From NCBI GenBank assembly GCA_021018995.1, contig CM037596.1, positions 101,043,416 to 101,107,415 on the forward strand: 64,000 nucleotides of DNA. The letters are read 5' to 3'. The notes beneath the pieces were generated by a model, which saw only the letters and a list, made by a program, of their open reading frames with translations, had not been told where the DNA came from and made no database searches. The position numbers and the translations under genes were made by a program. Below are positions 6,285-63,390 of this stretch, piece after piece (positions within the stretch are counted from its first letter, which is position 1; every line of letters begins with the position of its first letter). This stretch comes from Chloranthus sessilifolius. Its lineage: Eukaryota; Streptophyta; Magnoliopsida; Chloranthales; Chloranthaceae.

Positions 6285-9200
6285 AGAGAGAGGCAGAGAG
6301 AGAAAGCGACTACAATGACCACCTTTAAACAGATTGTGCTATGACCATCCAATTTTTGGCCATATGGCACACATGTTTGATCAATCAAGGTTGTCCAACT
6401 AGCAGCTCATCAATTACATGTTTCTCAACCAAAAAATACATCTATAAGACGATTCGAACTATCCGATAGGTGCACCTTAAACTGAACCATTACAAAAATT
6501 GAAATACCATCTACTTTAGAGTGCATACGTCGGACGGTTATCCATCAATGAGGGATTTTTGCCCACTTTAGTTCAATACGTGAACTACCACCTTGAAGAC
6601 TTGGATTGCACAAAAACACCTGTCACTTGGTATAATAAATGGGCAGTCATGGCATAATTTGTCAAGGAAGGGTCATTTGCCATTATTAAAAAAGGACAAA
6701 CAAACAAACGAAATGAATGGTGAAAAATATCAAACAAGCAAGCACACACACGAAGCCCGAGACGCCGGACCTTAGACCTGCCAAGAAGGCTGTTCCAGGT
6801 CAGTTTGGTGCCACGTGGTGGCATGCAAGCTCAAATCATTATTGTGAAAATAAAAGCATTCACTACCGTTAACGGCGGTCAATGGTTTAAAAATGCACGG
6901 TAAAATGTTTCAACATTTCACCATTCACTTTCACACTGTTGGATTGATGGTCAATATAATTTATTTTTTAAAAAAAATAGGGAGAGGTGAACTATAGGGG
7001 AATGGGTCCCATGGGGGTGTTAGAGATATTGAGCTATATGTGTTTAGTTTAGTATATATGTGTGTCTTTAGCTATGGTTGAACTTAGCTTCTTTTTTTTT
7101 TGAAACGGTAACAAAGTATATTGTATTAAAATAGAAATAGAATTACATACCTTGGTGGGTAGTAAGGAACTACCCAAAAGCAAAAGGCCCCCCTAAAAAA
7201 CACTCACCCTAGGAGTAGGGGCTGGTCCACAAAGCAAAACAACACCCCATCGCAACCAGGCAGGACCGGCACTTCTACGAGCAGCAGTCCTCCCATAGCA
7301 GCGTTCCAACAACAACCACCAGGTCTCTAATATCCCGAATAACCAACAAAAATCGTTTAGCCTTATGCGTGAAGACTCTATCGTTTTTTCCACCCAAATA
7401 GCCCAAAAAATGGCGTACACCGTGAGCGGCCATATCTCTTTCCTATGGTCTTCCACTTCCATTTCTTTCCACATTTCCATCATGTGGGCAGGCCAGAAAG
7501 GGAGAACCCATTTGACATTATAGATATTAAAAATCTTGTGCCAAATAGTTCGAGTGTAAGGGCAATGAAGAAGAATGTGGGACACTGATTCTCTTCCCCT
7601 CAAGCATAGCAGGCATTTATTACGAACCGGCATGTTTCTTCTTAGCAACTGATCCCACATTAGAATTATCCCCTGGGTAAGCAACCACGCGAAATTTTTT
7701 ATCTTAGGAGGCATCCGGACCCTCCAAAAACTTGACCATCTCCTGTTATCATTATGGATCCTTTCATGCATCAGCAACTGATTATAAAAAGATTTCACCG
7801 TAGAGTTCCCTTTAACAGAGTATTTCCATAGCCTCCGGTCTCTATTTGCCGAGTTGGGAGTAAATCCCCCCAATGACTCAACAAATTTTGATATTCCTCC
7901 ATTTCCCAATCCCTCAATTGCAATCTAAGTCTAACGTTCCTCACCAGATTCTTATCAAAAGATTGCACAAAATTACTAATAACCGCATCCTTTGAGTCTG
8001 AGAGCATAAATATCGTTGGGAAAACCGTTTGTAAGGGTTGTTCCCCAGCCTATCCTTCCTTCCAAAATTGAATCCTCCAGCCATCACCCCAATTGAATTT
8101 GGTGCCCTCTAACACTTCCTGTCTACACCCTTTCACTGCCTTCCACCATGCCGACACCTGGTTGGAGTTGGGGTTGAAGTTCGTATCATCTTCTCTCGTT
8201 CCGTATTTGCTGGAGACGATTTGCCACCATAATTTGTTTCTCTCCCCCTCTTCGTCCAACCTCCAAAGCCATTTCGCTAAGAGAGCTTTATTGACTAGTT
8301 TTAGCTTTCTGATTCCCAAACCCCCATTTTCCTTCTTATCGCAGCACTCCTCCCATATAACTAGATGTAGCTTTTTTCAATCACCAGATCCTTCCCATAG
8401 AAAATCCCTTACAATTTTCTCAAGCTTCTTCGTAACGCATGTAGGTTCCATGAGAAGAGACATCATGAATACTGAAATGGACGCGAAGGTGGATGTTATC
8501 AAGGTTAGCCTTCCCCCATTACTAAGCAGCTTACTCTTCCATGTAGCTAGTCTTTTTTGGAACCGCTGAACCACCGTGTCCCATATTCGAACCTTGCACC
8601 TTCCGAAACCAAGGGGAATACCTAGGTAATTAATAGGGAAGATCTCTATCTTGCACCGAACTTCCCTAGCTACCCACTCCGACTCTTCAGTAGACATATT
8701 AATTCCGACCAAACTTGACTTATGGAGGTTAATTCTCTGACCTGATATCCCTTCAAAGATTGTCAACAAGTTCAAGACCACTTTTAATTCACGATCTCCA
8801 TTGCTTCCATCACAAAAAACCATAGTGTTGTCTGCATATTGAAGATGTGAAATTGGTGGCCCAAGCTCCGCCATCTTAAACCCCTTTATCAAGTTTATCT
8901 CTTATGCCCTCTTGAAGAGACTGTGAAGCGCTTCCTCTACGCAGTTAAACAATAAGGGTGATATCGGATCGCCCTGTCGCAACCCCCTTTTACTCTGAAA
9001 GTATCCTTGGGGGATCCCATTGATGAGTATCGAGAACCAAACCAACGAATAACCATGGATCAAAATCTTGGATTTTCGATACATATCGTCCCGCCCCAAA
9101 ACCGATACATACCGGACGATACGTATCGATTCCGAACGATACTTTCCAGTTTTTTCCCAAAAAAAAAAACATAACAAAAAAAATAACAAAACCGATAATT

Positions 9201-12200
9201 TGAAATTATCGGACGATAATTTCAAATTATCACCCGATATAAACGATACGAACGATACTTTGAACGATAATTTGATTGTTTTTTAAGGGGGCAATAAAAA
9301 CCCAATGTATCGTATCGCTCAAGTTCAAAACCGATACGTATCGTCTGATACGTGTCAGTATCGGACGATATTTTGATCCATGCGCATAACAGCCTTTCAT
9401 CCATTTTCTTCACTTGACCCCAAATCCCATTCTATGTAAAACGTAATCGAGGAAATCCCATTAGACCATGTCGTAAGCTTTCTCCATATCAATCTTAAAG
9501 ATCCAACCCTTCTCTTTTCGCTTTTTAATTAAGCCTATCATTTCCACCGCCGAAACCACAATATGCAGTAGTTGTCTACCCGGGATGAATGCCCCTTGCA
9601 CATTCGAGATAAGTTGTCCGATAACCTCCTTGAGGCGATTTGCCAACACTCTAGCAATGATCTTATATGCACACCCTATGAGACTGATCGGTCTATACTC
9701 CAAGATGTTAGTTGCCCTAGCACATTTCGGGATAAGTGTTATGAATGTAGAATTCAAACTCTTGGCCACTCTACTCGTCTCCTGAAATTCGCCTATCATG
9801 GCCATAAAGTCCACGCCTAAAGTCTCCTAGCACGCCTTGAAAAATTCCATAGTGAATCCATCTAGTGTCGGGGACTTGTTTCCCAAACTATCCAAGTCTT
9901 TCCTAACCTCATCTTCCCCAAACCCCTTTTCCAGATATGTGGCTTTTTCCGGATTAATGGAGTGAAAAGGAATTCCGTCCATATGAGGTTTGTGCACTTC
10001 CTCTATAGCATAAAGGTGCTCAAAAAATTCCACTATCTTGTTCTGGACATTGGTAGGGTCTGCATGCACGACCCCATCAATTGTGATAGCGGATATACGG
10101 TTGTTTTTTTTTCTCCCATTGGCAACCAAGTGGAAGAATTGTGTGTTTCCATCTCCTTCCCGCGACTAGTGTGCTTTAGATTTTTGCCGCCACAATTGTT
10201 CCTCCTCCAGAACCAGCCGGTTATACTCCAACTTTAGAGCCACTCTGACCTCCCTCTCTTCATTCGAAAGCTTGGCTCTTTCTTCCGCTCTATCCAAAAC
10301 TGTGATCTCAGCCAAGATGTTATCTTTCTTCTGAGGCAACTTCCCAAATCTGTCCTTGCTCCAATTATTTATCTTAGGTTTTAGGTTCTTAAGTTTAGAT
10401 GTAAAAATATAGGGTGCTGACCCCGTAACACCGTCTTGGATCCACCACTCGTGAATCTTTTGTTTGAATTCTTCATTCTGCAACCAAGCATTATTGAATC
10501 TGAACGGACTCGAGCGCGATCCTTCCCTGCTTGATTCGTTACATGACAGAACAATCAATCTGTGATCAGAGATAGTTGTAGTCCACATATGGACTATCGG
10601 ATCAGTTACCACCTGTAAGAACTCCACCCCACATAGAAATCTGTCCAACCTGCACATGATAGGATCTTCCTGACCATTGGTCCACGTAAATCTTCCCCTA
10701 GACATCCCCAAATCATAAAGAGTGCCTTGCAAGATACACTCCATAAATAACTCCATTGTCGTGGTATCGATAGGTTTACAGTTTTTCTCCTCCACACTCA
10801 AGAGGGCATTGAAACCCCCCCCCCCCAATACAAACAGGAAAGTCCCATTTGCTCATAACAGCACTTAATTCAAAGAAAAACTCCTTTCTAAGCAAGTTGT
10901 CGTTGGGTCCATAAATAGTAATAGCAACCCACTGTTATTCGTTCCTGCAATCTTGGAGGAGAGCCGCCACCATATAATTTCCGATCTCTAACTCCATAAT
11001 TTTAAAACAGTTGGAGTCCCAAGCCAAAAGAATGCTTCCCCTCGTTCCTTCTGCTTCCAAAACCAGCCACTCCCAAGTATTCCCAGCCAAAACAACTCGG
11101 ATCGTCGCCGCATTCACCTCCCCCCATTTGGTTTCTTGTAACCCAATCACCTCCGGTTTCTGGCTTTTGGTGAAAGATTTAACCAGAGCCCTTTTGTCTG
11201 CATCTCCCAAACCTTCAACATTCCAGCTTAAGAACTTCATAACGAAAACAGACGCTGAGAGATCCCAAAGCCCGAAAATGTAGGCCAGCCTCTAAGAGTC
11301 CCCGCCCGGTGCCCCTCTGTCTTGTACTCCTTCTGTGTTCCTCGTTTTCCTCTGTCCCTTCCTTAATCTCGAATAATACGAACCCCATCTCGACCTAACT
11401 CGGCCCTTTCTCCCTTTCAGACGCTCTGCCTTTGATAATTGTTTCCCCCTTTCGAGGATATTCCCACATAGCTTCAGTAAACCCTTTTGGTTAGCATCAG
11501 AGGAAATCCCCAAAGCCATCCTCACTGTAATCAATCTCTCCCCTTCCCGAATCATGTCTGTAGAGAGCTTACAATGGCTGTCATCGGAGTATTCTTGAAT
11601 AGGATCGGTGTCTCTGGAACCCTCCTCAGTAGTGCTCCTTCGCAACTTCAGAAGAGCAGCTTGGCGCAATGGGGAGAAGCTTTTGCAATCGGACCTACAG
11701 TCAGTCCCAATACATCTGCACTCAACACCCGAAGAGAAGTTAGAAACACAAGAAGGTTGCCCCAGTCTTAGTGACCCGGACTCTTTAACTATATTATTAA
11801 AAGATAAAGGCACAAAATCGAGAGCTTTATGTCCGAAAGTCGGCCCATAACCGAGATTGCACCCGTCATCAAATTGTCAGGACACGTTGGGCCACAAGTG
11901 GCCGCATGGTTGCCCCGGTAAAAGAAAAGGTTCACGTCCTTCAGTCTCGTTGTTGTCCATTTGGCTGACATGTGTCTCTGAGTCAGCATCGCCTAGTTTT
12001 TTGTCCTTCGTCGACGCCTGCACATGTCTATTGGTTACCATGCCCTGGGCTTTGTCTAGTATTTTGGGAAAGTATGTCAAAAGTTGGACATACGATCAGC
12101 CCTTCCCTTTGCATCTTCGAAAAACCGAGGAATCCTGTCCCGAATCTCGAGGCACTGTCCTTTCCTGCTTCCAATAATTAATGTGTCATGTTCTGTCATT

Positions 12201-15200: not shown

Positions 15201-18200
15201 TAAGGGTAGGAGCCTTCCACAACAAAGTCCAGTCATGCTTAGTTAAAAGGTCTTCTCGTGACAATTCTATAAAATGACTTGGCTGCAAAGCGAGCTTTCT
15301 TAATACATTTCCAGCCATGGATCAAAATTTCGTCCGATACGTATCGGAAGTCACTGATACGGTACATTGAATGTACCGTATCGGTGGTTTAAGTACCGTC
15401 CGATACCGATACGTATCGGTTTTGGCCTCGGACGATACGTATCAGTTTTCCGGCATTTTAATCCTTGTTTCCAGCATCTTTCATCAATCCCTTTATTGTT
15501 TTTTTGGGTAGAATATAGCAAATAGATCAGATCAGTGTATGTGGATGCCTCCTCGGTGAGACTTCCTCTGGTACGAAACTCCAAGCACACAACTTGAATC
15601 CGTATAGCTCGGCCACTGTTCTGCCCACATCCATAGAGATGTCAAAAATAGAAGCAAAGGAAATCTTTAAAGGCTAGTTTCCAATCCACACGTTATCCCA
15701 AAAACGAATCCTTTCCCCACTGCCCCAGTTAAACTCAATCTGCTTAATGAAATCTGGCCAGGCTGTACCTATACCTTTCCACCAGCCAGAAGCTCTCCGC
15801 GAGAGTATAATACTAACCCCCAGTGATGAGCCATCCATTCATACTTATCTGCTAAAATAGAAACCCACAGGCTATTTCTTTCCTTCTCTTCCTCAGCTCT
15901 CCACAGCCCTTTCCCAATAAGGACTTAATTCATGTATTCAAGATTCTGAAATATCAAGACCCCCAAATATTTTAGAAAACCAACAAATCTCCCCCAGCTC
16001 ACCAGTTGGTATTTTCTGTCCAGGCCTCCCCCTTCCCACAAGAAGTCCCTTTCAATGCACTCCAACCTATCAATCACCCCTTTAGGACAAGTGAACATGG
16101 GCATGTTAAAAATGGGAAGACTAGACAACACTTTTGACCAAAAGCAGACATCCTCCACTACTTAGCATCTTGCCCTTCAGGGTGGCCAATCTACTGTTCA
16201 AACCTCTGGATGACCGGATCCTACGACGAAGCATTAGGCTTTCCAATCCCTAGCGGCAAGCCCCAGATACCTTATTGGCAAGCTTTCAACTTGAAATCCC
16301 ACCTCTTCTGCTAGGTCTTGAATTATATCAGAATTAGCTCTAATACCAGAAATTTTGGACTTGTGGAGGTTGATTTTGCCTTGAAACCGCCTAGTAAATA
16401 GTAGGCACATCCTTAACAACTTTGATTTCTAGTGCATCAGCCTTAGCAGAAAATCATTGTGTCATTTGGATATTGTGTGTACTCTACCATTATTTCCCCC
16501 ATTGATGCTAGAAATGTAATTAAGATTACAAGATTTCCGATCAGACCTCCCAGGGCTTCCCCCACCATGTTGACCAACCCCTCTAGAATGTTTAAGGCAA
16601 TGTTGTAGAAATCGAATTGAGTCACAAAATCGTTTTGGAATTTGTGAATCAAATCGAATCGTTAAATCATAAGATTTAAAACTATTTTTTCAATAAGAAA
16701 AATTTTTGAAAACAAATATCCAATAAATCTTAAATATTAAATTACATCCAAATATGTTCACAATAAATTTTATAACAAGATACTTCATTCATAAATAGTA
16801 TAAAGATGTAAAACAAATACGATCATCAATTTATGACTGATGTCCTTAAATGAATCTTAAGAAAACACCAATCCTTAAAATTTTAAGTGAAATCTTCATG
16901 GGCATTTTAAAAGTCATTTCATCATAGCAGTCATTAGCAATAAACATAATTGAATTCTGAATCCCCAAAAAGTTATGAAGGAAGAACAAATTTGGGGTTT
17001 TACCGTATTTGAGACAAAGATGAGAAAGAAACCCAATTTTTTAACCCCACACAATAGACAAGAGTATTATAAAAAGGGTTTCTTATGTTATAAAGAGGTT
17101 TTTTAATTTTTAACGAGCAAAAAAGTAAAGAAAATAAAACTTTCTTAAGTTTTATGTCACGTGAACCGTGAAAGGCTAACTCATGTAAGTGAGTTTGTGA
17201 ATCGTTCGATTCATTAAATCATTCGATTCCCTTGAATCGTAGGATTCAGGCCCAACAACGATTTTATGTCAAAATCGAATTGTTTGGTGAGCGATTTGAC
17301 TTAAATCGTAGGATTCTAGTCATAATTCGTAGGATTTTGACATCATTGGTTTGAGGAAACCTTTTGGAGTACCGTGAATGATCACCTAGAACTATGCGGA
17401 GGAATAGCATGCTTTAATCCACCTTATCCATCTAGCATCAAACCCAAATCTGTCATCAGATATTCCAAACAACTCCAATTGACCCTACCATCAGTTTTCT
17501 CCATATCCATCTTCCAGATAACCCCAGGAGCTCTGCTTCTCTAGGCTGAGTCCACCACCTCTGGAGCAACCGCCACTACGTCAATCAGTTGCCTGCCCCC
17601 ATCAAAAGCTCCTTGGTTAATCGATATAATCCTGCCTATGCATGGCTTAAGTCTGTATCTAAGCACTTTTAGCCAACATTTTGTGAAGGCAGTTTAAGAG
17701 GCTAATAGGCCTAGTCTTTTATATCCTCGGCTCCTTCCTTTTTAGGGATCAAAGTAATAAGGGTCGAGTTCAAACTCCTTCCCACACGTCCCAATCTACG
17801 AAAATTCTTTGAAGAAATCCAAGATGTCCCCCTCCACTACATTCCAGAAGCATCTATAGAACCCAAGGGTATACCCACCAGGTGGGGCCTTATGTTTCCC
17901 ACTATGCATGATGGCTCTTCTAATTTCGTCCTCCCCAAACTTTCTCTCCGGCCCCAACTGATCTTCTCTAGAAATTTTATTAAACTCCAGCCCATCGAGC
18001 TCCGGTCCACACCAGCCCTCATCCTGATACAAATTCTCATAAAACTGAAGCACCTGCACCCCAATGTGATCCTTATCCTTATACCTATTCCCATCCACCA
18101 TATACTGCCTATCAATCTGCTCTTGCATCTCAAATTGGCCACTAACCTTAAATATTTAGTATTATTATCCCGTCATAAACCAGTGCACTGTGTATGTGTT

Positions 18201-22100: not shown

Positions 22101-23016
22101 CAAGGTCTTACAAATTATTCACGAATTTTTTAAAAATTCATGTACTTTTTAAAAATTCACGAACTTTGCGACTAATTTGCTAATGATTCATGATTTTTTA
22201 AATAAATTCTATTTTTAATACCTTTTAAATTTTTTGTGTACTCTTTTTATCTTATTTTTTATTCTTTCTCTTAACTTTTCCCCAAACCTGTCGAATTTAT
22301 CCAGATTTTGTCAAATTGTAACCTCGCCGAACCTCGACTTTGTTACTATGGTTTGGACCAATCAACGGCACATTGATGAGATGAGTTGCCTAGAGTACCT
22401 AAGCAAACTCTTTATAAGTTAAGGGCACCAGAGAATTTGTCAATGGTCATTGATAGAGCATATCCAAAGGATTTTGTGGATCTAAGTGAAATTTTATGAA
22501 CATTGTTTAGCATCAAAACTATATCACTGATATCAAGAAAGCAGGTATAAACTGCATACATAAATCTTAATAAATAATATGTTTCCATAGATATAAACAT
22601 GAGTTGGGTTGCCCTAAAATATTGCTAGGCAACAAATAAGTTTGAAAAATGAACCATGAAATATGAGTAACTAAAAAGGTATAAAGTTTCATTTGGATAC
22701 ATTTCTGCAAGCATGATGCGATATGGCTGATGGCTGTCCAAATAAAAGAAAAAAATTGATAAAACACACATCATCAGGAAGGCCTATATTGCTAAATCCA
22801 TGTTTTGTGAACCAATAACATACAACCAGTGAAAAGAATAGCAGAAACATAAACTGATGATCTTCTGATTGACATGGAAATAGTAGATATTCAACTTGCA
22901 ATGCAGCCACACAGCCAACTAAAAGCAAAAATTGATCATCAACTCAAGAGACAGGGAAAATGAAGTAAACTGCATCGTAAGGCTCCAAGAATTTGCATGC
23001 AGAAGACTTTCGAAAG

Positions 23017-23087
<71 letters not shown>

Positions 23088-26000
23088 TAGAGCAATAATT
23101 CTTCATAAAGAAAAATGCACTTACTTGCCAACACATCCCTAAGTTCAAAAAAAAATTACTACACTGCCAATCGAGAAAAAATGACTGCAATTGAAGCCAG
23201 TAAAGTACCATCTTGACGTTGTTGTGGCAATCCAAGAAAGGCTTCCGGACGATCAGGTGGTAAGTAAGGCATCCAAAACTGAACATATCAGAAAACCATC
23301 CAGCAGAGGGTATTTTATTCCGAACCAATTCTGGGGCAGTGTAATCTAGGGATGGTTGTAGGGGTAGAACAGAATCCTCAACATCATACTCCTGCCCAAT
23401 TCACATACAATCAGGAAATAGAAAAATAAGATCCACATATGGCAGATCACTACAATTCGATGACTGCCCTCATGAAGGAGGGAATATAGCCCATCAATAA
23501 GAAGTGGATTAGTGCACTATGTAACATTATATCAACATCAGTAGGCATGACCGTACAGATGTATATGTACGATTGGCATGCTGTGATCCTACAGATGTAT
23601 ATGGTAAGATTGGCAAACTTGTAAAACTACGGCATAGGAATATACAGGGAATCACTTGATTATAATATTGTAGACATAAATACATTTTATAAGGGCATAG
23701 AGTACTTCAATTTTTATTCACCTAGATGAAAAAAATTAAAGCTTTCTGATAAGCCTATGCCAAATTTTTTCAGTTCTTCTACGCTCAGGATTCTGTATTT
23801 CAAAATTTTGATATGTAAGATGATGCATACAGTTCAACACAGCTATAGGGCATGCAATCACATATCATATATGGCCTGCATAAGAAGACTATTGCTGGAA
23901 AAGAAAGTCAGATGGTATGGCCGGTGATGCAAACCGCAGCTTGCCGACAAAGATCGACTGCAAATAGAGATACTCGAAAGCAGCTATAGAACATTAATCT
24001 AAGAAATAAAAAAAAATTGTGAAAAAATTATGGAAAATATCAAAAGGTGGGCAAAAAATAAAAGAAACACACACATGCATGTCACCCACCCATGGCCCCC
24101 CCCCGGCGCACGGGCGCATGCACAGACATGCGCGCGCACATGTAAAGCCCCTTATTGAATAGTTAATGAATATTGAGAATTGTGCTTTGTGCATATATTG
24201 AGAGAGATTCTTTCAACCATGAAAGCTTGTGAGAAGGTATCTTTGGAGCAAGAGTAATTCTCGTCCCTTGGTGAGAAGCCAACAACTTCTTTGGTGTGAT
24301 TCCAAAGAACTCCCTAGCTTCTTCTTTGTTCTTTATTCTTTATTCTTTATTTTATCCCGGAGATAAAAACCCTAATCCTATCATGTGGGATTTACGCTAT
24401 GTTAGGATTGTAGTGTGCCATTTTCCTGCATCAACTGCCCAATTGATCATAATTCTCTGTCGAAACAACATTCCAACAATTATATTCCATATATACAAGT
24501 AAGGACTTGAGAATGGGGGAGGAGTCAACGTTTGAATTGGACGGTGCTTTGTATCAAAATCATGAGGTCACAGGTTCAATACCAGATTGCCTTATGCCAA
24601 AGAAAAACTTCAGGGAGCTTCCACAGGAAGAAAAAACATATCAAAAGAAAACAGTTGTGCATAATTTTCTTAAGAGAACTAGTTAAGAAGAATTGATTAG
24701 TTTCTCAGAACCATATATTGGAACATTCCAATAAATTATTGTTTTCATTTTCATGATATGAGAGATTGATGTGAGCATGTGGGGATGATAAATGATTTCA
24801 TTACTGACCAACCAGCCAGCCAGCCAGTCAGTTAGAAACACTACTGAGACATACGGCAGAGAGATGGATTTGAACCGACCTTCTCGGTGAAATGGATAGA
24901 ATTGATTGCCAGTCAGTCAGAAACACTACTGAGACATACGGTAGAGATATGGACTTGAACGGACCTTCTCGGTGAAATGGATAGAATTGATTAATACCAA
25001 ACCTTTTTGTTACCATATCCTGATAGATCGGAGGTAAAAAATTGAAACTATTTCAATATAAAAAAAGAACAGGAAATAAACCTCCTCCTCCTATTTTCAG
25101 TTATATTGTACTCCTAAAGATAAAATCATGCTATATCCAATGAGCAACGAGAAAAGAAAAAGAGAGGAAATCATATAGTAGAACTGCCTAAGCTTAATGT
25201 ATCACTCACCGGATAATGAAAAGACTGCATGGTAGTCAAATCACCTGAATGATCTGCAGAAATTGCAAAACCAAAACCACCAAGCTTCCATGCTCCACTG
25301 GAAGTAATATATACAGTCTGCAGCAGGAAGATATGGTTAATAATATCATAATAATTATAATAATAACATATCATGGTGAACCCTAAATCTAGAAGAACCT
25401 CCAGTTGGTACTAAAGCCAAGGGAAAAAAGACGGTACACCCATTTTTACATTTTTATTAACAATATACCAGGAAAAAACAAAAAATATACATTCACTTTT
25501 TAGTAAAAGTTTACAAAAGAATACACAATGAATTTTCTCTTCGTTATTATCAAAATGCATGACAGTTGACACCGAAACAAAAGGTGAAAACAAATATTTT
25601 TAAAACGACTGTCATAAATAATAAAATAAAAGATAATAGCAAGCCAAATGAATACCTGACAGAGACTTGGGAATGCATGCTGACCAAGGTAGTTTCGATC
25701 TTTCAATATTAAGGTGTAATATTAGAAATAAGTAAGACCATTACAACTTAATAGAAACCAGACAAGTAAACTGCACGGTTCACAAAAGTCATATAATATT
25801 TAACTCGCCTTTTGGGGTTATCTTATTCCCATTTACTTTTTCCCCTTGTCCAATACCCTTTTGAACATATTATTTCCTTGTATTGTCGTATGCAACATTG
25901 CTTGACTCACTTTTTCTATTTATTTTTTGTAAATACTTTGTGTTTCTGATCTTTGTATGCATCTTGATTTCAATTTGTTTCCCTTCACTTGTGGGTCTTG

Positions 26001-31100: not shown

Positions 31101-34100
31101 CTAACCCTAGATAGACAGCAAAGGAGGTGATGCAGCAACATGGACAAGGAAGTGACACGGCACTTAGCCCGTGGGAATGACCAAGAGGCAAAGTCAAGGA
31201 GGTGCCGCAGCACAGTTATTGAGGTGATACAGCACTTGGCCCTTGGAGATGGCCAAGGGGAAAAGTCAAGGAGGTGAAGCAACAAAGTCAATGAGCCCAC
31301 GCAACACAGTCAAGTAGGGAATTCCGTACTTGGCCCTTGGATGGCGAAGGGGCACGGTCAAGGAGGTGATGCAATACAGTCGAAGAGGCGATGCAGTACT
31401 TAACTCTTTAAAGATGGTCAAGGGGTTCAAGGGTTACCATCAAAGATAGGGATAAGTATAAAAGGGAGCAGTATTAGTATTTCCATACAAATAAAGGGCA
31501 AAAATGTAAATTTATAATAAAATATAAGGATAAGGGGCAAATTTGTAATTTTTCCATGAATATAAAAGGTTGATAGAAAAGGACAAAAGAAGAATGATAT
31601 AATAATAAGGAGGTGAAAGATTTGGTATTATAATAAAATAATAAATTGAAGCGAAAAAAACTAATATTTTAACTGGGGTAAAAATAATATTAATTTAATT
31701 AAGAAGGTGATTAGGATATGGACTAGAATACTAAACAAATACATGAGGCTCATAAGGAGCCACCTAGGTGTGTATGTGTGGGCATGCATGTGTGACACAT
31801 ATGATATGTGTGTGAATGCATGTGTGACATGTGTGTGCATGCACGTGTGACATACGTGTGCATGCATGTGTTACATATGTTTGCATATGATTGGCCAAAA
31901 GGTACCTCTATTCGCACCTACCGCTTTACTGAAAGCGCCTACGCTCCCACGTGAGAAGAAAAAATCATTTCCTTTTTTGAATCGCTGAAAGCACATGCAT
32001 GTGTCACATATGTGTGCATATTGGCTAAACGGTACCTCTATCCGCGCCTACTGCTTTACCGAAAGCGCCTATGCTCCCACGTGAGAGGAAAAAATATCTC
32101 CTTTAAATAACTAAAAGCGCCTACTTATGAAACCCAAAGTGGGGGCACCCACCTTTCTCCGTCAACTCTAGCAACCACAACGACATCGTCGGTATCGCTG
32201 AATCACCTTCTTCTTCTTCAACCAATCGCAAAAATGATGCCGACATCACCAAAGCACCCTCTTTTCTTCCTTTTCTTCATCTTCTTGCTCAACTCTGGCA
32301 AGCCACAAGAGTCACAACGACGAAGCAGGCATTACTGAAGCACCCTCTTTTCTTTTCCTTCTTCACCTCCAATGAAAACCTAAAAAAAAACTACAAAAAC
32401 AAAGAAGAAACCCTAAAAAAAAGAACAAACAAAAACCCTAAAACCTAAAAAGACCCTTAATCTTGTCACGGTGGAAACCCACTGTCGGGCCAATGTTTAA
32501 CAACTGACAATGGGTACCCCACTGTCATAGATCTAGGGATTTTTTTATGTTTTAAGTTACTTTTCTTTTTTAGGGATTCTTCTTTTTTTTTCGGGTTTTT
32601 TTTATTTTTTTAGATGCGATTGGTAGTTTGGTGATGTCATCGTTGTTACGAGTCACTAGAGTTGAAGAAGAAGAAAGATCGTGCTTCGACGGCGCCGTCA
32701 AGTAATTGCCGGAGAAGAAGGTGGGTGCTTTCACATAGGAGGGTGCTTTCATGTAGGGTAAAAAAAATGAATAAACATTAAGTGGGTGCCCCTCACTAAA
32801 ACCGCACTTCATAAGTGGATGCTTTCAGTAAAGCGGTAGGGGCGAATAGAGGTGCCCTTGGCCAAAAAGAAAGGTCCCTCCTCCCCTTGGGAAGTCTAAA
32901 TAAGGAAAGGGGGGATAGAAAGTCATTCCCACTCCCCAATTCATGAGAGAGAAGAAGATCGAGCTTAGGGGTCCAATTAGGGATGGTCAGAGCACAGCAG
33001 TTCAGTTTAGTCGATCTCCTCCAAGCAAGTCTCTCTTCCTTAAGCCCACTTAGTTAATTAAGTAGAATTAGGGGTAGATAATCCTACTTCGGGGGATTTA
33101 GAGCAGGTAATTCTAGTTCGAAGTAACAGCCCAGATTAGCCTATTAATCTTGTTTAGGGGTAATTAACTCTGATTAGTCTAATTAATCCTACTTATGATT
33201 AATTAACTTTGATTAGCCTAATTAATCCTACTTAGGATCATGGATCAAAATTTCGTCCGATACCGATACGTATCAGTATCGGTATCGGAGATCACCGATA
33301 CGGTACATTGAATGTACCGTATTGGTCATATATACGCATTAGCTGGACGATACATTCAATGTATTGTCCGGTACCGTCCGATACCGATACGTATCAATTT
33401 TGGGCTCGGACGATACGTATCGGTTTTCCGGCATTTTGATCCATGCTTAGGATTAATTAACTCTGATTAGCCAATTAATCCTGACTAGGGCTAATTAACC
33501 CGCTAGATGTCCAATTAATTTTGATTAACCAATTAATGTTGATTAAGGTTAATTAAACTGATTAACCTAATTAAGTATGACCAAATCAAGCAAGACTGTT
33601 TTCGTAAAAGACCACTTGCAAAGTTTCATAACCAAAATGGTTATTAGAAGCTGATTTCAATCTCTCTGGCAACAATAAAGTCATGAAGATATCAAAATTT
33701 TGTTTTCAACATTGAATTTTCATATCATTTTTTATCAATAAAAGGAATTTAATAGAAAAAGAAAACCAATACAAGTCTACCAAAAGCAAAAATCCCAATC
33801 AACAGTGAACACCCAAGAATCTAGCCAATTCGAACCCAAAGCTTAACGGAAGTCCATTGCAAGAGGAAAATAGGCTACATGACGAGGCTATCCAATCCCC
33901 ACTATGGTCTTGCCCATCCAAGTTCTCGCCTAAGAAACCAAGATAAATCCACGCCAACGCAAAATCTCTAACCTCCTTCAATATCATATTTATCGGTTTA
34001 CTAATCCTCCCAAAGATTCTACTTTTTTTTTTTCTTCCAGATGGACCACATAACTGCCAGAGCTATAATATGCCAGAAGTCACCCTTCTTACCTTCATAA

Positions 34101-36436
34101 CTAACTCCTCCCACACAGAAAGCAAGCTCTCCCATAGTCACTAGGGAAAACGATACAAACATCAAACATAGCCATAAAGACAACTATTGACAACCCACAT
34201 TTCTCTAGTCTCGCAAATTTTTATAGCATGTTTGTACATTAGAGTTTAGACTTTAGAATGAAAATGAGTTGATACCAAAGTAAATGTATTTCCTGATATC
34301 TGAAAAATATGAAAGCCTTTTGAAAGAAAAGTCAGTTTACGAAATACCTGGAGTAAAAAAACAGGCATGAATACCTGATTTAGTACTTGTAAAATCATGC
34401 ATACGCATCTCAGCTGTTCTCTATTTTTTATCATTTTCCCATAGCTCAACACTTTGCACCATATAATAATTTGTCTTAGCACTGCTTTATAAAAATGTCC
34501 TTTTAATCAAAGTGGCACTCGTTGTTGAACACATATCACTCGCTTGTCTCCAATCCGTCCAACGTGCATTGATCTTGTTGAAGATGTCATCTCCAAATCC
34601 ACCATTTGTTGTATAGTAGAGGCCAAAACCAAAATCTACGACATGGAATCCACAACCCAGTTACAAGGGTTTTATGCTGTCACTCTATCATATGTGATCT
34701 TGGATTATGTAGTACATAAGAAAATAAAATGTCTTTTTTCTTATTGGCAATAAAAATAAAATGTCAAGCGGCTGATTGAAAATATATGAATATGTATATA
34801 TATGGAAAAGGATTTGCACAGTATTTTTTACTGTCCAATCATATTTAATAACAAGATTGCACAAGCTTGATCAAGATGAGAGAGTGGCAACTCGTTTTAT
34901 TATCACATAATGGACATAGTTTGTGGAAGCACTTAAATGTAGATGTGTCAATAAAATGGGATTAAAAAAATACCTGGAAAGTGTGTTATGGGACTAATTG
35001 TTACCTAGAGGGCTAGCGGTCCTAATCGATAGTTTTACATTTTCACCCAAAGTAAACTATTAAAAAAATTAAATAAATAAATAAAGTTTTCACCCAATTA
35101 AACCTTTATACCTCATACAATTTCACACCCAACCTCTTTCCTATCTTCTACTTAAACTAAGAAATATCTATCTCAAGAAGGAGATCTCTACCTCAACTAG
35201 GAGACTTGAACTCCTAATAAGTATAACATAAGATTCAACTCCAAAACACGTGTGAGAAAGTACATATAGCTTTCAAAGATTAAGTAAATGGAGACCGACA
35301 ATGGGAGTGTAGTCCTTGGGAGTCTAGACCTCCGTATTGAGAATTATGGTTCAAAGTTTCATCATCAATAATCAAATCCATGATACACTGAGCTAACTTT
35401 CAATCATGTCTATTATTTCATTTAGGATTAAAATAACGATAGCATTGAATCAATAAAAATATTTAGCATCCATTTTTTCGTTAGATTTCAAATATTCAAT
35501 TTCCGAGCTTTAAAAGATATAAAGATCTGATTTTCTTTAACCATATGTGTACCACACAACCGAAGCTCCGACACATTAGTCCAAACTATGCGCCTTATGC
35601 AATGGTGCGACTGATCGCAACAAAAAACCCATACCCATCCACCACTACATCTAAATAGACCTAAATTCACTAAGCACAGAAACCAATTTAATCAATCAAT
35701 CAAAACCACCAATTCGAAATTTTCAAAACAAAGACAGCTATAAAATTAACTGCAACCTTAAAATCGATCAAGATCCACAAAATTGAAATTAAGATCAACT
35801 AAATCAACTAACCATATCAATCAATCATACCAAAATTTCAAATTTCTCTAAACAAAGTCAACTACAACATTTAAACCGATCGCAATCTACGAAATTGAAA
35901 TCAACAAAATTAAAAGCTCTGAATAGCTCAATATCACATACCATCCCCTTGAGCTCTTTAGGCACCTTCGCAATATTATCCACCCCACCGAGCGCATTCG
36001 CGACCGAGGCGAACAACGGCTCGGTGACCATCGCCATGGCATTTTTGCTCTCGTCCAATGCCTGCACCACGTGGACCACGCCAGGGTGCCGGAGCCTCAC
36101 GAGTTTGGCGGCGTCGGCCCGAATTATGTCAAAAAACGTGTCTTCGGCGGTTTTCGAGAGGCCGGCGCGAGCTCGGGCCTCCGATAGCGCGCGCTTGTCG
36201 AGGACCCAGACGCAGACGAGGGGGTACTGGCCGGTGGCCGGTCCGCGGGTTTTGGGCCGGGCGGAGAAGAGCTTCCAGGCGAGGCCTGGACCGCCCGATC
36301 CGATCTGGTCGAGGAGATCATAGTCTTGTAAGGGTTTTGGACCGGTGACTTCTTGAACCGTCGTTTGAACCGTTTTCTCGATTACGGCGGCCGTTTTGGC
36401 TAGGGCTTGGGTTAGGGTTTTCATGTTCAGGGCCAT
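6014..36436 (-). CDS. SCYL2: SCY1-like protein 2 (SCYL2), N-terminal five exons of a larger gene
   Basis: Joined exons 36436-35942, 30664-30560, 25317-25210, 23391-23209 and 6140-6014 give 339 codons plus one base, with no stop. Every junction has GT/AG borders and the phases agree (0,0,0,0, then 1). Recognised from family knowledge: an N-terminal [10 protein letters not shown]-like start, then a kinase-like fold. It is a pseudokinase: the HRD catalytic loop reads HRA (residues 194-196) and DFG reads GFG (214-216), while the APE motif (255-257) is kept. Known SCYL2 proteins bind clathrin and act in trans-Golgi/endosome traffic; in Arabidopsis they are needed for cell growth. Plant homologues are about 900 residues, so roughly a third is here and the HEAT-like and clathrin-binding C-terminal part lies beyond position 1. 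Introns total over 29 kb and are filled with transposons. Confidence 0.93.
6234..6277. repeat. (TA)n microsatellite
   Basis: About 22 TA units in SCYL2 intron 4, followed by a short GA-rich run. Confidence 0.95.
6330..7085. repeat. Relict of the TTAAACACC MITE group
   Basis: Weakly repeats phrases found in clearer copies at 26.7-27.5 kb and 39 kb ('atggcacacatg', 'gatcaatcaa', 'caattacatg'). A GGTCAATGGTTTAAAA block follows near 6880. No clear ends or target duplication. Confidence 0.4.
7193..11240 (-). pseudogene. LINE ORF2: endonuclease, reverse transcriptase and zf-RVT, broken
   Basis: It starts [12 protein letters not shown] at 11240. The endonuclease part shows [21 protein letters not shown] and SDHRLIV (about 10.56 kb). 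The RT part shows [33 protein letters not shown] (9.48 kb), then after the [17 protein letters not shown] (8.97 kb), QYADN (8.83 kb) and YLGIPLG. The catalytic YADD has become YADN. The tail has the zf-RVT signature ([25 protein letters not shown]; about 7.75-7.55 kb). Frames change at least seven times. Confidence 0.88.
9054..9382. mobile_element. hAT-type MITE, CGATACGTATCG family (subfamily A), inside LINE RT
   Basis: Terminal inverted repeats CATGGATCAAAAT / ATTTTGATCCATG. Target duplications CGAATAAC (9046-9053) and CGCATAAC (9383-9390) match at 7 of 8 bases. Removing the element and one duplication restores a continuous LINE reading frame (..MKGCYSLVWF..), which confirms both ends. The interior is packed with CGATACGTATCG-like half-palindromes. 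Confidence 0.92.
11292..13600 (-). pseudogene. LINE ORF1 (DUF4283-like nucleic-acid-binding protein), broken
   Basis: Reading leftward, an N-terminal part ([19 protein letters not shown] near 13.3 kb) stops at 13178. In another frame [15 protein letters not shown] is followed by [13 protein letters not shown] and [13 protein letters not shown] (about 13.15-12.86 kb), the order usual for the DUF4283 domain of plant LINE ORF1. Remnants run on to 11292. Several frame changes break it. Such proteins coat LINE RNA. Confidence 0.6.
13601..14455. other. Region between two LINEs
   Basis: May be the 5' leader of the first LINE. A block at about 13905-14010 (AACCATAAATGGGTATTTCT) is repeated at 18280-18385, also just upstream of a LINE. 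No gene seen. Confidence 0.4.
15316..15467. mobile_element. hAT-type MITE, CGATACGTATCG family (subfamily A)
   Basis: The left end is CATGGATCAAAAT; the right end is slightly mutated. Perfect 8-bp duplications TTTCCAGC lie at 15308-15315 and 15468-15475. 152 bp, the smallest copy, inserted in the zf-RVT end of the second LINE. The interior is GATACGTATCGG repeats. Confidence 0.92.
16598..17348. mobile_element. hAT-type MITE rich in GAATCGTAGGATTC words
   Basis: Ends CAATGTTGT / (right, reversed) CAATGATGT. Target duplications GTTTAAGG (16590-16597) and GTTTGAGG (17349-17356) match at 7 of 8. Subterminal GATTCGATTC/GAATCGTAGGATTC motifs form an imperfect dyad near the right end. AT-rich middle, no coding. 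Inserted in the second LINE's RT. Confidence 0.85.
18141..18948. other. SCYL2 intron 4 stretch without gene
   Basis: Holds the second copy (18280-18385) of the block shared with 13905-14010 and A-rich runs near 18650-18710. A T-run at 18891-18898 followed by 'ggcaaactataaaaactgat' looks like a LINE-type 3' end. Confidence 0.35.
18949..19527. mobile_element. hAT-type MITE (GGGCTCTCAATGGGCCAGG ends)
   Basis: Inverted ends CAGTGCTCTCAATGGGTCAG and (right, reversed) TTTAGGGCTCTCAGTGGGCC. Flanking ATCCCACC (18941-18948) and TTCCCACC (19528-19535) match at 7 of 8. Both arms are rich in GGCCGGGCC. A relative lies at about 45.39-45.84 kb. Confidence 0.8.
19536..20146. other. SCYL2 intron 4 stretch without gene
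   Basis: Nothing recognised. The sequence is of mixed composition and no motif or repeat boundary was seen. Confidence 0.3.
20155..21363. mobile_element. Non-autonomous hAT element, 1.2 kb, with internal duplication
   Basis: Ends CTGTGTTGTCAAAGGCGC and (right, reversed) CAGTGTTGTCAAAGGCGC. Perfect 8-bp duplications TGTATACC lie at 20147-20154 and 21364-21371. The interior has two copies of a block of about 400-500 bp, from CGCCTCGAGTTACTTTA at about 20297 and about 20819. Arms carry CGCCTAGGCGC-like words. No transposase. Confidence 0.93.
21403..21718. mobile_element. hAT-type MITE (TAGGGGTG ends)
   Basis: Ends TAGGGGTGAGG / CCTCCACCCCTA. Perfect 8-bp duplications CTTGTGCA lie at 21395-21402 and 21719-21726. 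The interior is rich in GGTTCGGTTTCGG and its complement, forming a long imperfect hairpin. It sits only 32 bp from the preceding hAT element's duplication. Confidence 0.93.
22059..22350. mobile_element. hAT-type MITE (CATAGT ends)
   Basis: Ends CATAGTCACC / (right, reversed) CATAGTAACA. Duplications CTTTGGAC (22051-22058) and GTTTGGAC (22351-22358) match at 7 of 8. The interior holds repeated AAAAATTCACGAA/TTTTTAAAAATTC palindromes. Confidence 0.82.
22359..23018. other. SCYL2 intron 4 stretch without gene
   Basis: AT-rich intron sequence near exon 4. No element ends or coding signal seen. Confidence 0.3.
23019..23084. repeat. (AT)n microsatellite, 66 bp
   Basis: 33 uninterrupted AT units in intron 4, close to the exon 4 donor. 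Confidence 0.97.
23209..23391 (-). CDS. SCYL2: SCYL2 exon 4 (residues 237-297)
   Basis: This exon is 183 nt, 61 codons, [10 protein letters not shown] to CHNNVKM. The acceptor is GGCAG at 23392-93 and the donor GTACTTTA at 23208. It contains [10 protein letters not shown] (activation-segment end, APE motif) and [13 protein letters not shown], the kinase subdomain IX equivalent. A 66-bp (AT)n tract lies 125 bp downstream in the intron. Confidence 0.94.
23392..24075. other. SCYL2 intron 3, proximal part
   Basis: No gene. Includes two near-identical short phrases around 23550-23610 ('acagatgtatatg..agattggca'), a small local duplication. Confidence 0.35.
24080..24140. repeat. Alternating purine-pyrimidine tract (ACACAC, GCGCGC)
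   Basis: ACACACACATGCATG and CATGCGCGCGCACATG flank a run of nine C. Such alternating tracts can adopt Z-DNA. The tract lies in SCYL2 intron 3. Confidence 0.6.
24141..24480. other. Possible solo-LTR remnant
   Basis: Begins TGTAAAGCCCC and ends CCAACA, with a T-rich 'ttctttattctttatt' region and AACCCTAATCC. No 5-bp target duplication matches, so this is only a suggestion. Confidence 0.25.
24520..24640 (+). other. Possible tRNA-derived SINE remnant
   Basis: GAGGTCACAGGTTCAATACC resembles a Pol III B box with its upstream context. No clear A box, tail or target duplication. Confidence 0.25.
24824..24993. repeat. Tandem duplication, 85-bp unit x2
   Basis: The phrase from CAGTCAG..GAAACACTACTGAG to CTCGGTGAAATGGATAGAAT is present twice with offset 85 bp and few differences. 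A CCAG-rich run precedes it. Confidence 0.9.
25210..25317 (-). CDS. SCYL2: SCYL2 exon 3 (residues 201-236)
   Basis: This exon is 108 nt, 36 codons, [10 protein letters not shown] to SFHYP. The acceptor is CTGCAG at 25318-19 and the donor GTGAGTGA at 25209. It holds [10 protein letters not shown], where GFG replaces DFG. The first residues read T-V-Y, where I recall relatives having N-V-L or N-V-F. That is a small divergence at the splice junction, not a break. Confidence 0.93.
25318..26440. other. SCYL2 intron 2, part without genes
   Basis: AT-rich. Nothing recognised except ordinary intron sequence. Confidence 0.3.
26445..26562. repeat. GAAGCGGGAGCG repeats and (TA)n, partial MITE end
   Basis: GTTGCACGAAGCGGGAGCGGG and further GCGGGAGCG words are followed by a TA run (26535-26561). 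It looks like one end of a MITE; the partner end is not seen. Confidence 0.4.
26710..27077. mobile_element. TTAAACACC-group MITE, copy 1 (left end lost)
   Basis: Shares the order ATCTTACACC - GATCAATCTAAATTGCCCAA - AATGGTGTAAGAT - GAGAGTCGG with the next element and with copies at 38.87, 39.86 and 43.64 kb. Right end GTTCAGGAGAGTCGG. Lies head-to-tail with copy 2. Confidence 0.65.
27095..27531. mobile_element. TTAAACACC-group MITE, copy 2
   Basis: Long terminal inverted repeats of about 50-55 bp: left GACTCC..CATTTAAACACCA, right (reversed) GACTCTCCTCA..CATTTAAACA, both followed by GATCTTACACCATTA. The target duplication is not certain, so the superfamily (Mutator-like is likely from the long ends) is open. 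Confidence 0.75.
27532..28130. other. SCYL2 intron 2 stretch without gene
   Basis: Repeats of 'aaaaaccaagggtatt' near 27600-27720 and a GA run at 27783-27800 next to TCGCGAAGATCTC words. No gene. Confidence 0.35.
28131..28174. repeat. (CT)22 microsatellite
   Basis: An uninterrupted CT run in SCYL2 intron 2; on the gene strand it is (GA)22. Confidence 0.97.
28189..28264. repeat. Cluster of GGAACCGCGGTTCC palindromes
   Basis: Three copies: GGAACCGCAGTTCC (28189-28202), GGAACCGCGGTTCC (28211-28224, perfect) and the 18-bp perfect palindrome GGGGAACCGCGGTTCCCC (28247-28264). CGTTTCCGAAACG lies between the last two. Directly follows the (CT)22 tract. Confidence 0.85.
28458..29339 (+). mobile_element. 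5'-truncated LINE with 12-bp target duplication
   Basis: ATCAATGAATTC occurs at 28446-28457 and 29340-29351 and brackets the insert exactly. The insert carries the C-terminal zf-RVT part of a LINE ORF2 ([39 protein letters not shown]), now frameshifted, and ends with an A-rich tail after 'aataaattttgttatttacc'. It lies in SCYL2 intron 2, antisense to the gene. Confidence 0.92.
28565..29045 (+). pseudogene. LINE ORF2 C-terminal fragment (zf-RVT)
   Basis: Two overlapping frames (28565-28981 and 28755-29045) together give the zf-RVT zinc-finger-like region (C-x2/3-H..HLLIHCW) and the following W-rich tail (ALWNERNK). A frameshift lies near 28900. No catalytic RT motif, so it is inactive. Confidence 0.82.
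29495..29665. repeat. Tandem repeat, about 55-60-bp unit x3
   Basis: The phrase CACGAGGCAACCTTCTTTCC..AACCAACTTCCTTTTC occurs three times, the last with a run of about 14 C. The open frames across it only translate the repeat. Confidence 0.85.
29666..30559. other. SCYL2 intron 2 stretch without gene
   Basis: AT-rich intron sequence. A short phrase is duplicated (29702-29745 and 29855-29895: 'gaaacaggactcat..ccaacc'). Nothing else recognised. Confidence 0.35.
30560..30664 (-). CDS. SCYL2: SCYL2 exon 2 (residues 166-200)
   Basis: This exon is 105 nt, exactly 35 codons, from [10 protein letters not shown] to IHRAISPE. The acceptor is TGCAG at 30665-66 and the donor GTCACAAT at 30559. It contains HRAISPE, the altered catalytic loop. 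It is too short to stand out as an open frame and was found by its homology and splice sites. Confidence 0.93.
30665..31119. other. SCYL2 intron 1, distal part
   Basis: No element recognised. Confidence 0.3.
31120..31450. repeat. Degenerate minisatellite (GTCAAGGAGGTGATGCAGCAC)
   Basis: AAGGAGGTG starts recur near 31125, 31197, 31267 and 31359, each followed by GCAGCAC.., CTTGGCCCTTGG.GATGGCCAAGGGG. Unit about 70-90 bp, at least four copies. Confidence 0.8.
31755..31890. repeat. TGTGTGCATGCATGTGTGACATA short tandem repeats
   Basis: About five copies of a roughly 25-30-bp unit built of TGTG, GCATGCATG and GACATATG. Alternating purine-pyrimidine; includes CATGCATG (RY-type) words. Immediately left of a Mutator-type element. 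Confidence 0.8.
31900..32857. mobile_element. Mutator-type non-autonomous element (MULE MITE)
   Basis: Terminal inverted repeats of roughly 45 bp (GGTACCTCTATTCGCACC.. ; right, reversed GGGCACCTCTATTCGCCCC..), both running into CTACCGCTTTACTGAAAGC. Perfect 9-bp duplications TTGGCCAAA lie at 31891-31899 and 32858-32866. The left end with its flank is duplicated again (about 31862-31990 and 31991-32110). The middle holds CAACTCTAGCAACCACAACG-like and CTTCTTCTTCAAC sequence that may be captured host DNA. Confidence 0.88.
32867..33090. other. SCYL2 intron 1 stretch without gene
   Basis: Purine-rich sequence, then the start of the AT-rich repeat. Nothing recognised. Confidence 0.3.
33095..33580. 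repeat. Minisatellite of CTAATTAATCCTACTTAGG type
   Basis: Degenerate units of about 40 bp (GATTAATTAACTCTGATTAG / CCTAATTAATCCTACTTAGG), interrupted by a MITE at 33239-33445. Confidence 0.85.
33239..33445. mobile_element. hAT-type MITE, CGATACGTATCG family (subfamily A)
   Basis: Ends CATGGATCAAAAT / ATTTTGATCCATG are perfect inverted copies. Perfect 8-bp duplications CTTAGGAT lie at 33231-33238 and 33446-33453. The interior is CGATACGTATCGGTATCGG-like repeats and a TGTACCGTAT dyad. Confidence 0.95.
33725..34215 (-). pseudogene. LINE 3' tail remnant
   Basis: The minus strand reads CGPSGRKK and [20 protein letters not shown], resembling the extreme C-terminus of plant LINE ORF2, with a T-rich end at 33725-33745 (A-tail on the minus strand). 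Frameshifted near a T10 run at about 34025. 5' truncated; no target duplication found. Confidence 0.55.
34216..35941. other. SCYL2 intron 1, part near exon 1
   Basis: AT-rich, no gene or element ends seen. Repeated AATCAATC/AAAATTTC phrases near 35690-35860 look like simple-sequence drift. Confidence 0.3.
35942..36436 (-). CDS. SCYL2: SCYL2 exon 1 (residues 1-165)
   Basis: The start is the ATG at 36436. It lies in a good context (GCCATGG) and gives the family-typical [10 protein letters not shown]. An in-frame ATG at 36484 would add 16 residues not usual in the family. The exon carries the degenerate glycine loop IGSGGPG (45-51), a VWVLDK segment in place of the kinase VAIK lysine strand, and [16 protein letters not shown]. 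It ends KELKGM, with donor G^GTATGTG at 35941. It is markedly GC-rich compared with the AT-rich DNA around it, and open frames on its other strand are shadows. Confidence 0.95.
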
Positions 36437-36640
36437 GGCGGTTTTAGAGAGAGAGAGAGAGACAGGAGAGAGTATAGGCTCCACCCTCTTTCACGATTCT
36501 CCTTCTGCTTTCTCTCTCTAGCATATTTGTCCCCGACAGTGAAGAGCAGGGATCAGGTGTATAACCTATAGATTTAATGGGTTGTTACAGTCACAAATTC
36601 TACGAATTAACAAAAATTTTGTAAAAATTCCCAAACGGTA
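36437..36640 (-). promoter_or_regulatory. SCYL2 5' leader and core promoter region
   Basis: On the minus strand the leader just before the ATG is a CT-rich tract (the plus strand shows GAGAGAGAGA around 36447-36461), a common plant 5'UTR feature and possible GAGA-factor site. No clear TATA box is seen. The transcription start cannot be fixed from sequence. Confidence 0.5.
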
Positions 36641-43622: not shown

Positions 43623-43639
43623 GTACATTAATTAGACAG

Positions 43640-44115
43640 CTCCATCGTTGTTATAGGTGTGATTCTTTGGCTAAGGCATGTGTTACTATCATGGTATAAA
43701 AAATTGGCCGATACCGAAACCTTCGGTGATACGTATCGGTTTCTCGGCAAACTAATACGTATCGCTATCTCAACTAGGTATCGGTATCAGCAGATACGGG
43801 CTCGTATGGGTCGATATGGTATCGATTTCAGCCGATATCTCTATTTTTTAAAAGGCCGATACGTATCGGTATCGACCGAGTTGTATCGGTACTCTATGGA
43901 CTGATACCCGAGTCCGATAGCAATTTTGATACTTTGATTAGTGCTAATGAAGAACTGACACTTAGACAATTATGATTGATCACAAATGTGTGCAACATGA
44001 CATAACATTAAATGGTGCAAGATCCACAGAATAGTTTAATCCTTTAGTGGCATAAGATCTGGGTATTTAAGCGTCCATCACCTCCTCCTTTAAATGACAG
44101 TCAGAAGAGTTGGTA
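43640..44115. mobile_element. TTAAACACC-group MITE carrying a subfamily B MITE
   Basis: GTGATTCTTTGGCTAAGGCATGTGTT before and TGATTGATCACAAATGTG after the insert are the middle of this MITE group. The right end GACAGTCAGAAGAGTTGG is at about 44115. Confidence 0.55.
43690..43936. mobile_element. CGATACGTATCG-family MITE, subfamily B
   Basis: Left CATGGTATAAAAAATTGGCC; right (reversed) CAAAGTATCAAAATTGC. The interior is GGCCGATACGTATCGGTATC repeats. An 8-bp duplication could not be matched cleanly. Confidence 0.8.
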
Positions 44116-54096: not shown

Positions 54097-54382
54097 CAAG
54101 GTAATAAATATCGGCCGATATCGATACATATCAGTTTTTTAGCAAATCGGTATGTATCGGCGCAAATACGTATCAGGTATCAACTCAGGTATAGGTATCG
54201 GTGTGAGCTGATACGGGCACATATCGGCCAATACAATATCGGTATCGACCGATACCTCTATTTTCTTATTATTTTTTTAAAAAGTACTGATACAACTCGG
54301 TATCGACCGATACGTATCGGCCGATTCGTTATTTGTCCTCCGTGGACCAATACCCGATACCGATACTGAGTCTGACACCTTG
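54097..54382. mobile_element. CGATACGTATCG-family hAT MITE, subfamily B
   Basis: Ends CAAGGTAATAAATATCGGCC / (reversed) CAAGGTGTCAGACTC. Perfect 8-bp duplications CTTTTTAC lie at 54089-54096 and 54383-54390. The interior is GATACGTATCGGCCGAT-like repeats. Confidence 0.93.
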
Positions 54383-54390
54383 CTTTTTAC

Positions 54391-55700: not shown

Positions 55701-55717
55701 CTAAGATGTGTTCCAAT

Positions 55718-56028
55718 CAAGGAATCAAATCGGGTATTGGTACCGGGTATCGGTCCATGAAGGACCAATACAAATCAGCCGATACAGATACATATCAGCA
55801 GCTTAAAAAAAAGAAAAAGAAAAAAGAAAATACAAGTATCGACTGATACTTGATTCATATATGCCGATACCCGATATCCATCGGCTGACATGGGGCCACA
55901 TCGGCCGATACCGAAACTGATACCGAGTTGGATACTCGATACATATCGGAGCAGATACTTATTAGTTTGCCGAAAAACCGATACATATAACAAATACGTA
56001 TTGGAATCGGATGATTTTTTATTCCTTG
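55718..56028. mobile_element. CGATACGTATCG-family hAT MITE, subfamily B
   Basis: Ends CAAGGAATCAAATCGG / (reversed) CAAGGAATAAAAAATC. Flanks GTTCCAAT (55710-55717) and GATCAAAT (56029-56036) match at 6 of 8. Inserted in a TTAAACACC-group MITE at the same point as the 43690 copy. Confidence 0.82.
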
Positions 56029-63329: not shown

Positions 63330-63390
63330 CAAAGTGTCAAACTCGGTTTCGGTATCGGATATCAGTCTATGGAAGACTAGGCGCGCAACT
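63330..63390. repeat. Truncated subfamily B MITE end
   Basis: CAAAGTGTCAAACTCGGTTT then CGGTATCGGATATCAGTCTA matches, reversed, the right end of the 54097 copy. Confidence 0.65.

Follow-up and report, generated by a model that had tools for sequence, protein, structure and literature searches.

Here we analyse a 64,000-nucleotide stretch of the Chloranthus sessilifolius genome (C13:101043416-101107415 in a genome of 2.17 Gb and 32 contigs; hereafter the window) and conclude, with a probability that we put at roughly 0.8, that the short palindrome-rich elements found in it belong to several related families of miniature inverted-repeat transposable elements (MITEs) of the hAT superfamily, in which the hexamers CGATAC and GTATCG form inverted subterminal repeats that are probably sites for the BED domain of a transposase. 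That these short elements are transposons is concluded from their ends, from the 8-bp target site duplications (TSDs) flanking them and from an empty insertion site, and it is the same evidence that supports the first-pass annotation of the window in its reading of a hAT MITE. Members of the hAT superfamily have short terminal inverted repeats that start with CA or TA and end with TG or TA, and the features found here, namely 8-bp TSDs, inverted ends and subterminal repeats at both ends of elements that are short, non-coding and present in high copy number, are those of the superfamily and of MITEs. The elements would be a naturally occurring case of hAT ends pared down to recognition sites, and their middles and terminal sequences differ between groups, yet the layout of the palindromic hexamers is similar.

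The copies in the window are listed in Table 1, where A and B denote two types of ends. The three A copies were borne out at the sequence level as first annotated, all starting with CATGGATCAAAAT, and so were their duplications, which are perfect for the 15316 copy (TTTCCAGC) and the 33239 copy (CTTAGGAT) and alike at 7/8 bases for the 9054 copy (CGAATAAC/CGCATAAC). The 15316 copy has a non-canonical 3' end, ATTTTAATCCTTG, but this variant is also found in copies with perfect TSDs, for example L088, L094 and L108. The A copies fall into two groups, A1 (33239 and 15316) and A2 (9054), which have both ends in common and different middles, and since the left end of A1 aligns with the right end of A2 and vice versa, the orientation of the 9054 copy is reversed.

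Table 1. Elements, target duplications and subterminal repeats in the window (window positions).
Feature	Position	Strand	Remarks
A2 element, 329 bp	9054..9382	-	A-type ends, own A-rich middle, reversed relative to A1
Left target duplication CGAATAAC of 9054 copy	9046..9053	.	Read from sequence
Right target duplication CGCATAAC of 9054 copy	9383..9390	.	Sequence and empty sites
A1 element, short version, 152 bp	15316..15467	+	Part of interior absent
Target duplications TTTCCAGC of 15316 copy	15308..15315 left, 15468..15475 right	.	Perfect, 8 bp
A1 element, 207 bp	33239..33445	+	40 scored genome places: itself and 39 others
Target duplications CTTAGGAT of 33239 copy	33231..33238 left, 33446..33453 right	.	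Perfect, 8 bp
Left subterminal repeats of 33239 copy	33258..33275	+	CGATAC at element positions 20 and 26, GTATCA at 32
Right-end 12-bp palindrome CGATACGTATCG of 33239 copy	33411..33422	.	24 and 30 from right terminus
Decayed B-type copy	43690..43936	+	Left end CATGGTATAAAAAATTGG, right end ...AATTTTGATACTTTG
B element	54097..54382	+	Perfect 8-bp TSD CTTTTTAC at 54089-54096 and 54383-54390
Second B-type group	55718..56028	+	Ends CAAGGAAT...ATTCCTTG; TSD 6/8 (GTTCCAAT/GATCAAAT)
Truncated B right end CAAAGTGTCAAACTCGG...	63330..63377	.	By-eye match to B right ends

Such duplications also flank copies outside the window. Among the 39 other scored matches of the 33239 copy, all of full or nearly full length, which were picked by similarity over the whole length and are 83-90% identical to it, 37 are flanked by sequences alike at 6/8 or better (perfectly in 20, at 7/8 in 13 and at 6/8 in 4), whereas the same level was reached in 2 of 533 comparisons at offset positions. 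The exceptions are L029, with flanks alike at 4/8, and L027, a side-by-side pair. At the latter locus (C7:416507-417161) the two A1 copies lie about 30 bp apart and the outermost flanks are alike at 2/8. Counting TSDs at fixed flanks gives 35/41 at 6 or more matching bases, a count that misses copies with trimmed ends.

A second sample was selected by the left 25 bases alone and consists of the 30 exact left ends that come first on C1. The opposite end together with a TSD of at least 6/8 was found for 26 of these, 16 of them with perfect duplications, and the number is unchanged when the right end is chosen by its own letters alone instead of with the help of the TSD. The 26 closed copies measure 148-260 bp (median 211.5) and are too short to encode a transposase. 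Of the four left ends below 6/8, as judged by eye, L100 continues into LINE-like sequence (LINE, long interspersed nuclear element) and L110 into sequence of another kind, L086 forms a compound together with a second copy, and L091 is closed, 218 bp long and flanked by a TSD alike at 5/8; no hAT transposase was seen in these four by eye, no domain search having been run on them. In L110 (C1:24770591), a sequence beginning CAGTGGCGGAATCATG was noted by eye about 60 bp after the A1 left end and is possibly another hAT-like insertion.

Similar results were obtained for the other groups. All 10 A2 copies with fetched ends have TSDs of at least 6/8, 8 of them perfect, as do 9 of the 10 fetched B copies, 5 of them perfect, although for the latter the TSD match helped to place the ends, a procedure biased towards TSDs; one B copy, L117, shows no TSD once its ends are fixed. 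B copies start with CAWGGTATCAAATATCGGC and end with CAAGGTGTCAAACTCGG, and terminal inverted repeats of the form CA...TG, of the CATGGATCAAAAT and CAWGGTATCAAA types, occur in most copies, a few having a mutated end.

The empty site was found for the 9054 copy, which according to reading frames and domain matches is inserted within a LINE reverse transcriptase. When its flanks were joined and one duplication removed, the resulting sequence matched a LINE paralogue on C9 over 240/240 bases at 93% identity, and in all six LINE paralogues whose centres were fetched the sequence runs gap-free through the junction and holds a single target, that is, an empty site. This target reads CGCATAAC in 3/6 and differs by one base in the other 3/6, and for this reason the mismatch between the duplications of the 9054 copy probably arose by mutation in the left one, CGAATAAC. 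LINE-like frames with RVT_1 and zf-RVT domains are present on either side of this copy (window 7193-11291, - strand), and the 15316 copy is likewise situated, by eye, at the margin of a LINE-like frame.

The motif itself is strongly concentrated in the elements. The window contains the exact palindrome CGATACGTATCG 7 times and exact hexamers 66 times, with up to 10 hexamers per 250 bp, whereas 40 first-order Markov simulations gave no palindrome, a mean of 12.4 and a maximum of 20 hexamers, and a largest cluster of 2; only 11 hexamers fall in the 62,463 window bases outside the six copies. The description of the elements as consisting almost wholly of palindrome units was nevertheless overstated, since the share of sequence made up of exact hexamers is 14-29% for the six copies of the window, rising to 37-49% when one mismatch is tolerated, and 90/215 bases (42%) for the A1 consensus. 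Nor is the number of units the sole cause of the size range of 152-329 bp, as had been proposed, since the 329-bp copy has an A-rich middle of its own and a block of the interior is absent from the 152-bp copy.

Near both ends the repeats CGATAC and GTATCG stand at preferred positions. Among 41 A1 copies, exact hexamers are found from the left end at position 20 in 25, at 26 in 30 and at 32 in 24, and from the right end at position 24 in 25 and at 30 in 25. The 26 closed copies that had been picked by their left ends show in their last 60 bp exact hexamers at 24 (14 copies), 30 (20) and 50 (13), and elsewhere twice. In A2, exact CGATAC occurs at left 20 in 8/10 and at right 24 in 9/10, while the positions further in, read in the 9054 copy only, have two mismatches (left 26) or one each (left 32 and right 30). 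In B, with at most one mismatch, the hexamer is found at left 20 in 8/10, at 26 in 10/10 and at 32 in 8/10, so that the left layout of 20/26/32 is common to A1 and B, in B mostly with one mismatch, whereas the layout of the right end of B is unlike that of A. Of the earlier notion that B has different ends and the same interior, the first part therefore holds, but what B shares with A is the motif and the left-end layout and not the interior.

According to PMC10368747, the two subterminal repeats of Hermes form a quasi-palindrome that stands in rigid phase with the terminus and is bound cooperatively by two BED domains, and in Tol2 a perfect palindrome directly follows the terminus, while PMC3260210 describes binding of the Ac transposase to multiple subterminal AAACGG repeats. 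We read the palindrome of the present elements as an inverted pair of subterminal repeats because its preferred distance from the terminus fits this plan of Hermes, Tol2 and Ac. By this analogy, a hAT transposase provided in trans would bind the hexamers through its BED zinc fingers, each CGATAC|GTATCG palindrome taking two of them in the manner of the STR1-STR2 quasi-palindrome of Hermes, and the short elements would amount to little beyond two joined recognition ends with extra repeats and hairpin-forming filler. The mobilising partner element would reside elsewhere in the genome or may now be lost. The proposal of a transposase-binding array, already put forward in the first-pass annotation, is accordingly retained as the best-supported mechanism on the strength of the preferred register and the parallels with Hermes and Ac, the binding as such being argued by analogy, and it predicts a BED-finger transposase that recognises CGATAC as inverted pairs.

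Several observations weigh against this reading. The register is a preference, in that for each of the five positions there are 11-17 A1 copies of the 41 without the exact hexamer; the motif also occupies the interior, where subterminal repeats would be unneeded; and a register common to A1, A2 and B could stem from common descent alone. Furthermore, the motif shows no direct sign of selection, because with the AT-rich centre excluded its A/T sites are no better conserved than the rest (25/1761 against 18/1535 substitutions); an excess of conservation had been apparent before this exclusion, disappeared with it and was dropped as evidence. Finally, no A terminus or motif cluster was found in 30 loci with a hAT dimer domain (PF05699), which were cut out with 1.5 kb on either side after a search that gave 4,130 first-look candidates, of which 150 were scored, the exception being a motif cluster in L076. 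This cluster was considered as a sign of the partner and rejected, as it belongs to a neighbouring MITE whose TSD, by eye, is alike at 7/8.

Six hAT loci, taken from these or from other hits, were viewed at 10 kb and all have other ends and are free of internal CGATAC clusters. Five of them (L078, L080, L081, L083 and L084), which are hAT-dimer-domain elements of about 3.9-5.2 kb, have ends of the TAGGGCTGTCAACGGG type and TSDs of 7-8 of 8 bp, and the sixth, L082, has no convincing end; with at most 2 mismatches the TAGGGCTGTCAACGGG-type word occurs in 15 of the 30 hAT loci. This resident hAT resembles the A and B families in its TSDs of 7-8 of 8 bp, and it has a hAT dimer domain, but with its other termini and no CGATAC cluster inside it was rejected as the partner. 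On C1, 1/18 transposase matches lies within 8 kb of any of the 100 A left ends listed there, and the A copy beside it, L099, is closed, 260 bp long and flanked by a perfect TSD of its own.

The alternative that survives best, although we regard it as rather unlikely, is that the elements are hAT MITEs whose amplified feature is a fold-back, a hATpin-like hairpin, and not the docking of transposase, the repeats being a by-product of hairpin growth. The 33239 copy does fold far better than its shuffled versions (z -10.8 as DNA and -11.7 as RNA, 0/200 shuffles being as good in each), the elements match their own reverse strand, and the interior hairpins TACATTGAATGTA lie partly outside the hexamers. 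A fold-back alone, however, leaves unexplained why one specific hexamer is used, and likewise why the left and right registers differ and are common to families with different middles.

It is still less probable that the palindrome is mainly a site for a host factor of transcription or chromatin which has been spread by the element. The number of copies of the 14-bp palindrome CCGATACGTATCGG in the genome, 13,385 against 2 in a reversed control, is in keeping with such a role, and in Brassicaceae E2F sites were amplified mainly in MITEs (PMC12595863), but the transposition machinery offers a better explanation for a register measured from the termini. A related idea, that a host factor, possibly a domesticated hAT BED-finger protein, might read the more than 13,000 palindromes as an array of regulatory or chromatin sites across the genome, we consider marginally more doubtful again.

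Superfamilies other than hAT, for example P and Merlin, also make 8-bp duplications, and the assignment of the elements to hAT has been made from ends and TSDs, no transposase being linked to them. We nevertheless hold an origin from another superfamily to be very improbable, since CA...TG ends, 8-bp TSDs and subterminal repeats together fit plant hATs and since hAT dimer domains are plentiful in this genome (at least 150 scored matches among the 4,130 candidates), with the TSDs of 7-8/8 at five of six loci noted above. A satellite-like or simple repeat without any transposon, as might be imagined from the unit-like sequence and the variable number of units, is refuted by the dispersed copies with TSDs and the empty site.

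The closest known kind of element is that of the hATpin and Ds-type hAT MITEs. In a study of 2005 Moreno-Vazquez et al. reportedly described hATpin as MITE-like hAT elements of diverse plants with highly stable secondary structures, and going by the title of that study the 33239 copy is alike in being a hAT MITE with a stable hairpin, a comparison of descriptions only. The Ds1 class of the maize Ac/Ds system likewise comprises short non-autonomous hATs made of the termini and a few subterminal hexamers of the autonomous element, but there the transposase-binding hexamer is AAACGG (PMC3260210), whereas here it is CGATAC, often in head-to-head palindromes. AAACGG is absent from all 41 A1 copies, from the A1 consensus and from the six window copies, and because of its absence from 41/41 A1 copies the elements are not Ac/Ds proper. 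With Hermes and Tol2 they share inverted subterminal repeats that form a palindrome or quasi-palindrome near the terminus, but the motif there has an AAGT core (PMC10368747), and in the A and B families the motif also fills the interior. Since hairpin hAT MITEs are known and 54,998 MITE families have been reported from a survey of 207 genomes (abstracted from PMC12550479), the family may already be present, unnamed, in a database. Among the papers searched by text, none carries any of six palindrome strings, nor GATACGTATC combined with 'hAT' and 'transposon'. The family looks new, and its palindromic layout of subterminal repeats is unusually clear and abundant.

As for abundance, the exact 25-base A left end has 697 matches in the genome and, at up to 3 mismatches, 14,727, the reversed control giving 0 in both cases. 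The 100 exact left ends listed, all on C1, reach to 194 of 199 Mb and are sparser in the middle of the chromosome (55 at 0-60 Mb, 18 at 60-120, 3 at 120-160 and 24 at 160-200). The 41 A1 copies, 17 of which were reversed to a common orientation for the alignment, have a mean identity of 93.8% (89.8-97.5) to their consensus, and A2 has 40 scored matches of 307-352 bp including the 9054 copy. The 54097 B copy also has 40 scored matches, those other than itself being 71-83% identical, and matches to the 55718 copy are 68-88% identical, many of them partial; because of this lower identity among its matches B looks older than A1, as judged from sequence divergence.

Within the window, 2/3 of the B copies have 8-bp target duplications alike at 6/8 or better, the 43690-43936 copy having no recognisable TSD in its flanks (GTTACTAT/ATTAGTGC). 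Copies like those at 54097 and 55718 are also neighbours at C7:43190022-43192251 and C16:5575019-5577246 (82% and 79% identity), which suggests that these regions may be segmental paralogues of window 54097-56028 sharing both insertions. A tandem array of a 132-bp unit (x 2.0, 43354-43623) lies directly upstream of the 43690 copy, and another of a 90-bp unit (x 4.0) is found at 51497-51860.

Scanned against Rfam at gathering scores, the window yielded 0 matches. On the - strand there are two possible exons of one or more kinase-like genes, one at 22939-23400 with a weak Pkinase match (22.1 bits, against a cut-off of 31.7), and one at 35858-36490, which has no Pfam match at E 0.001 and reads like the N-terminus of a SCY1-like kinase.

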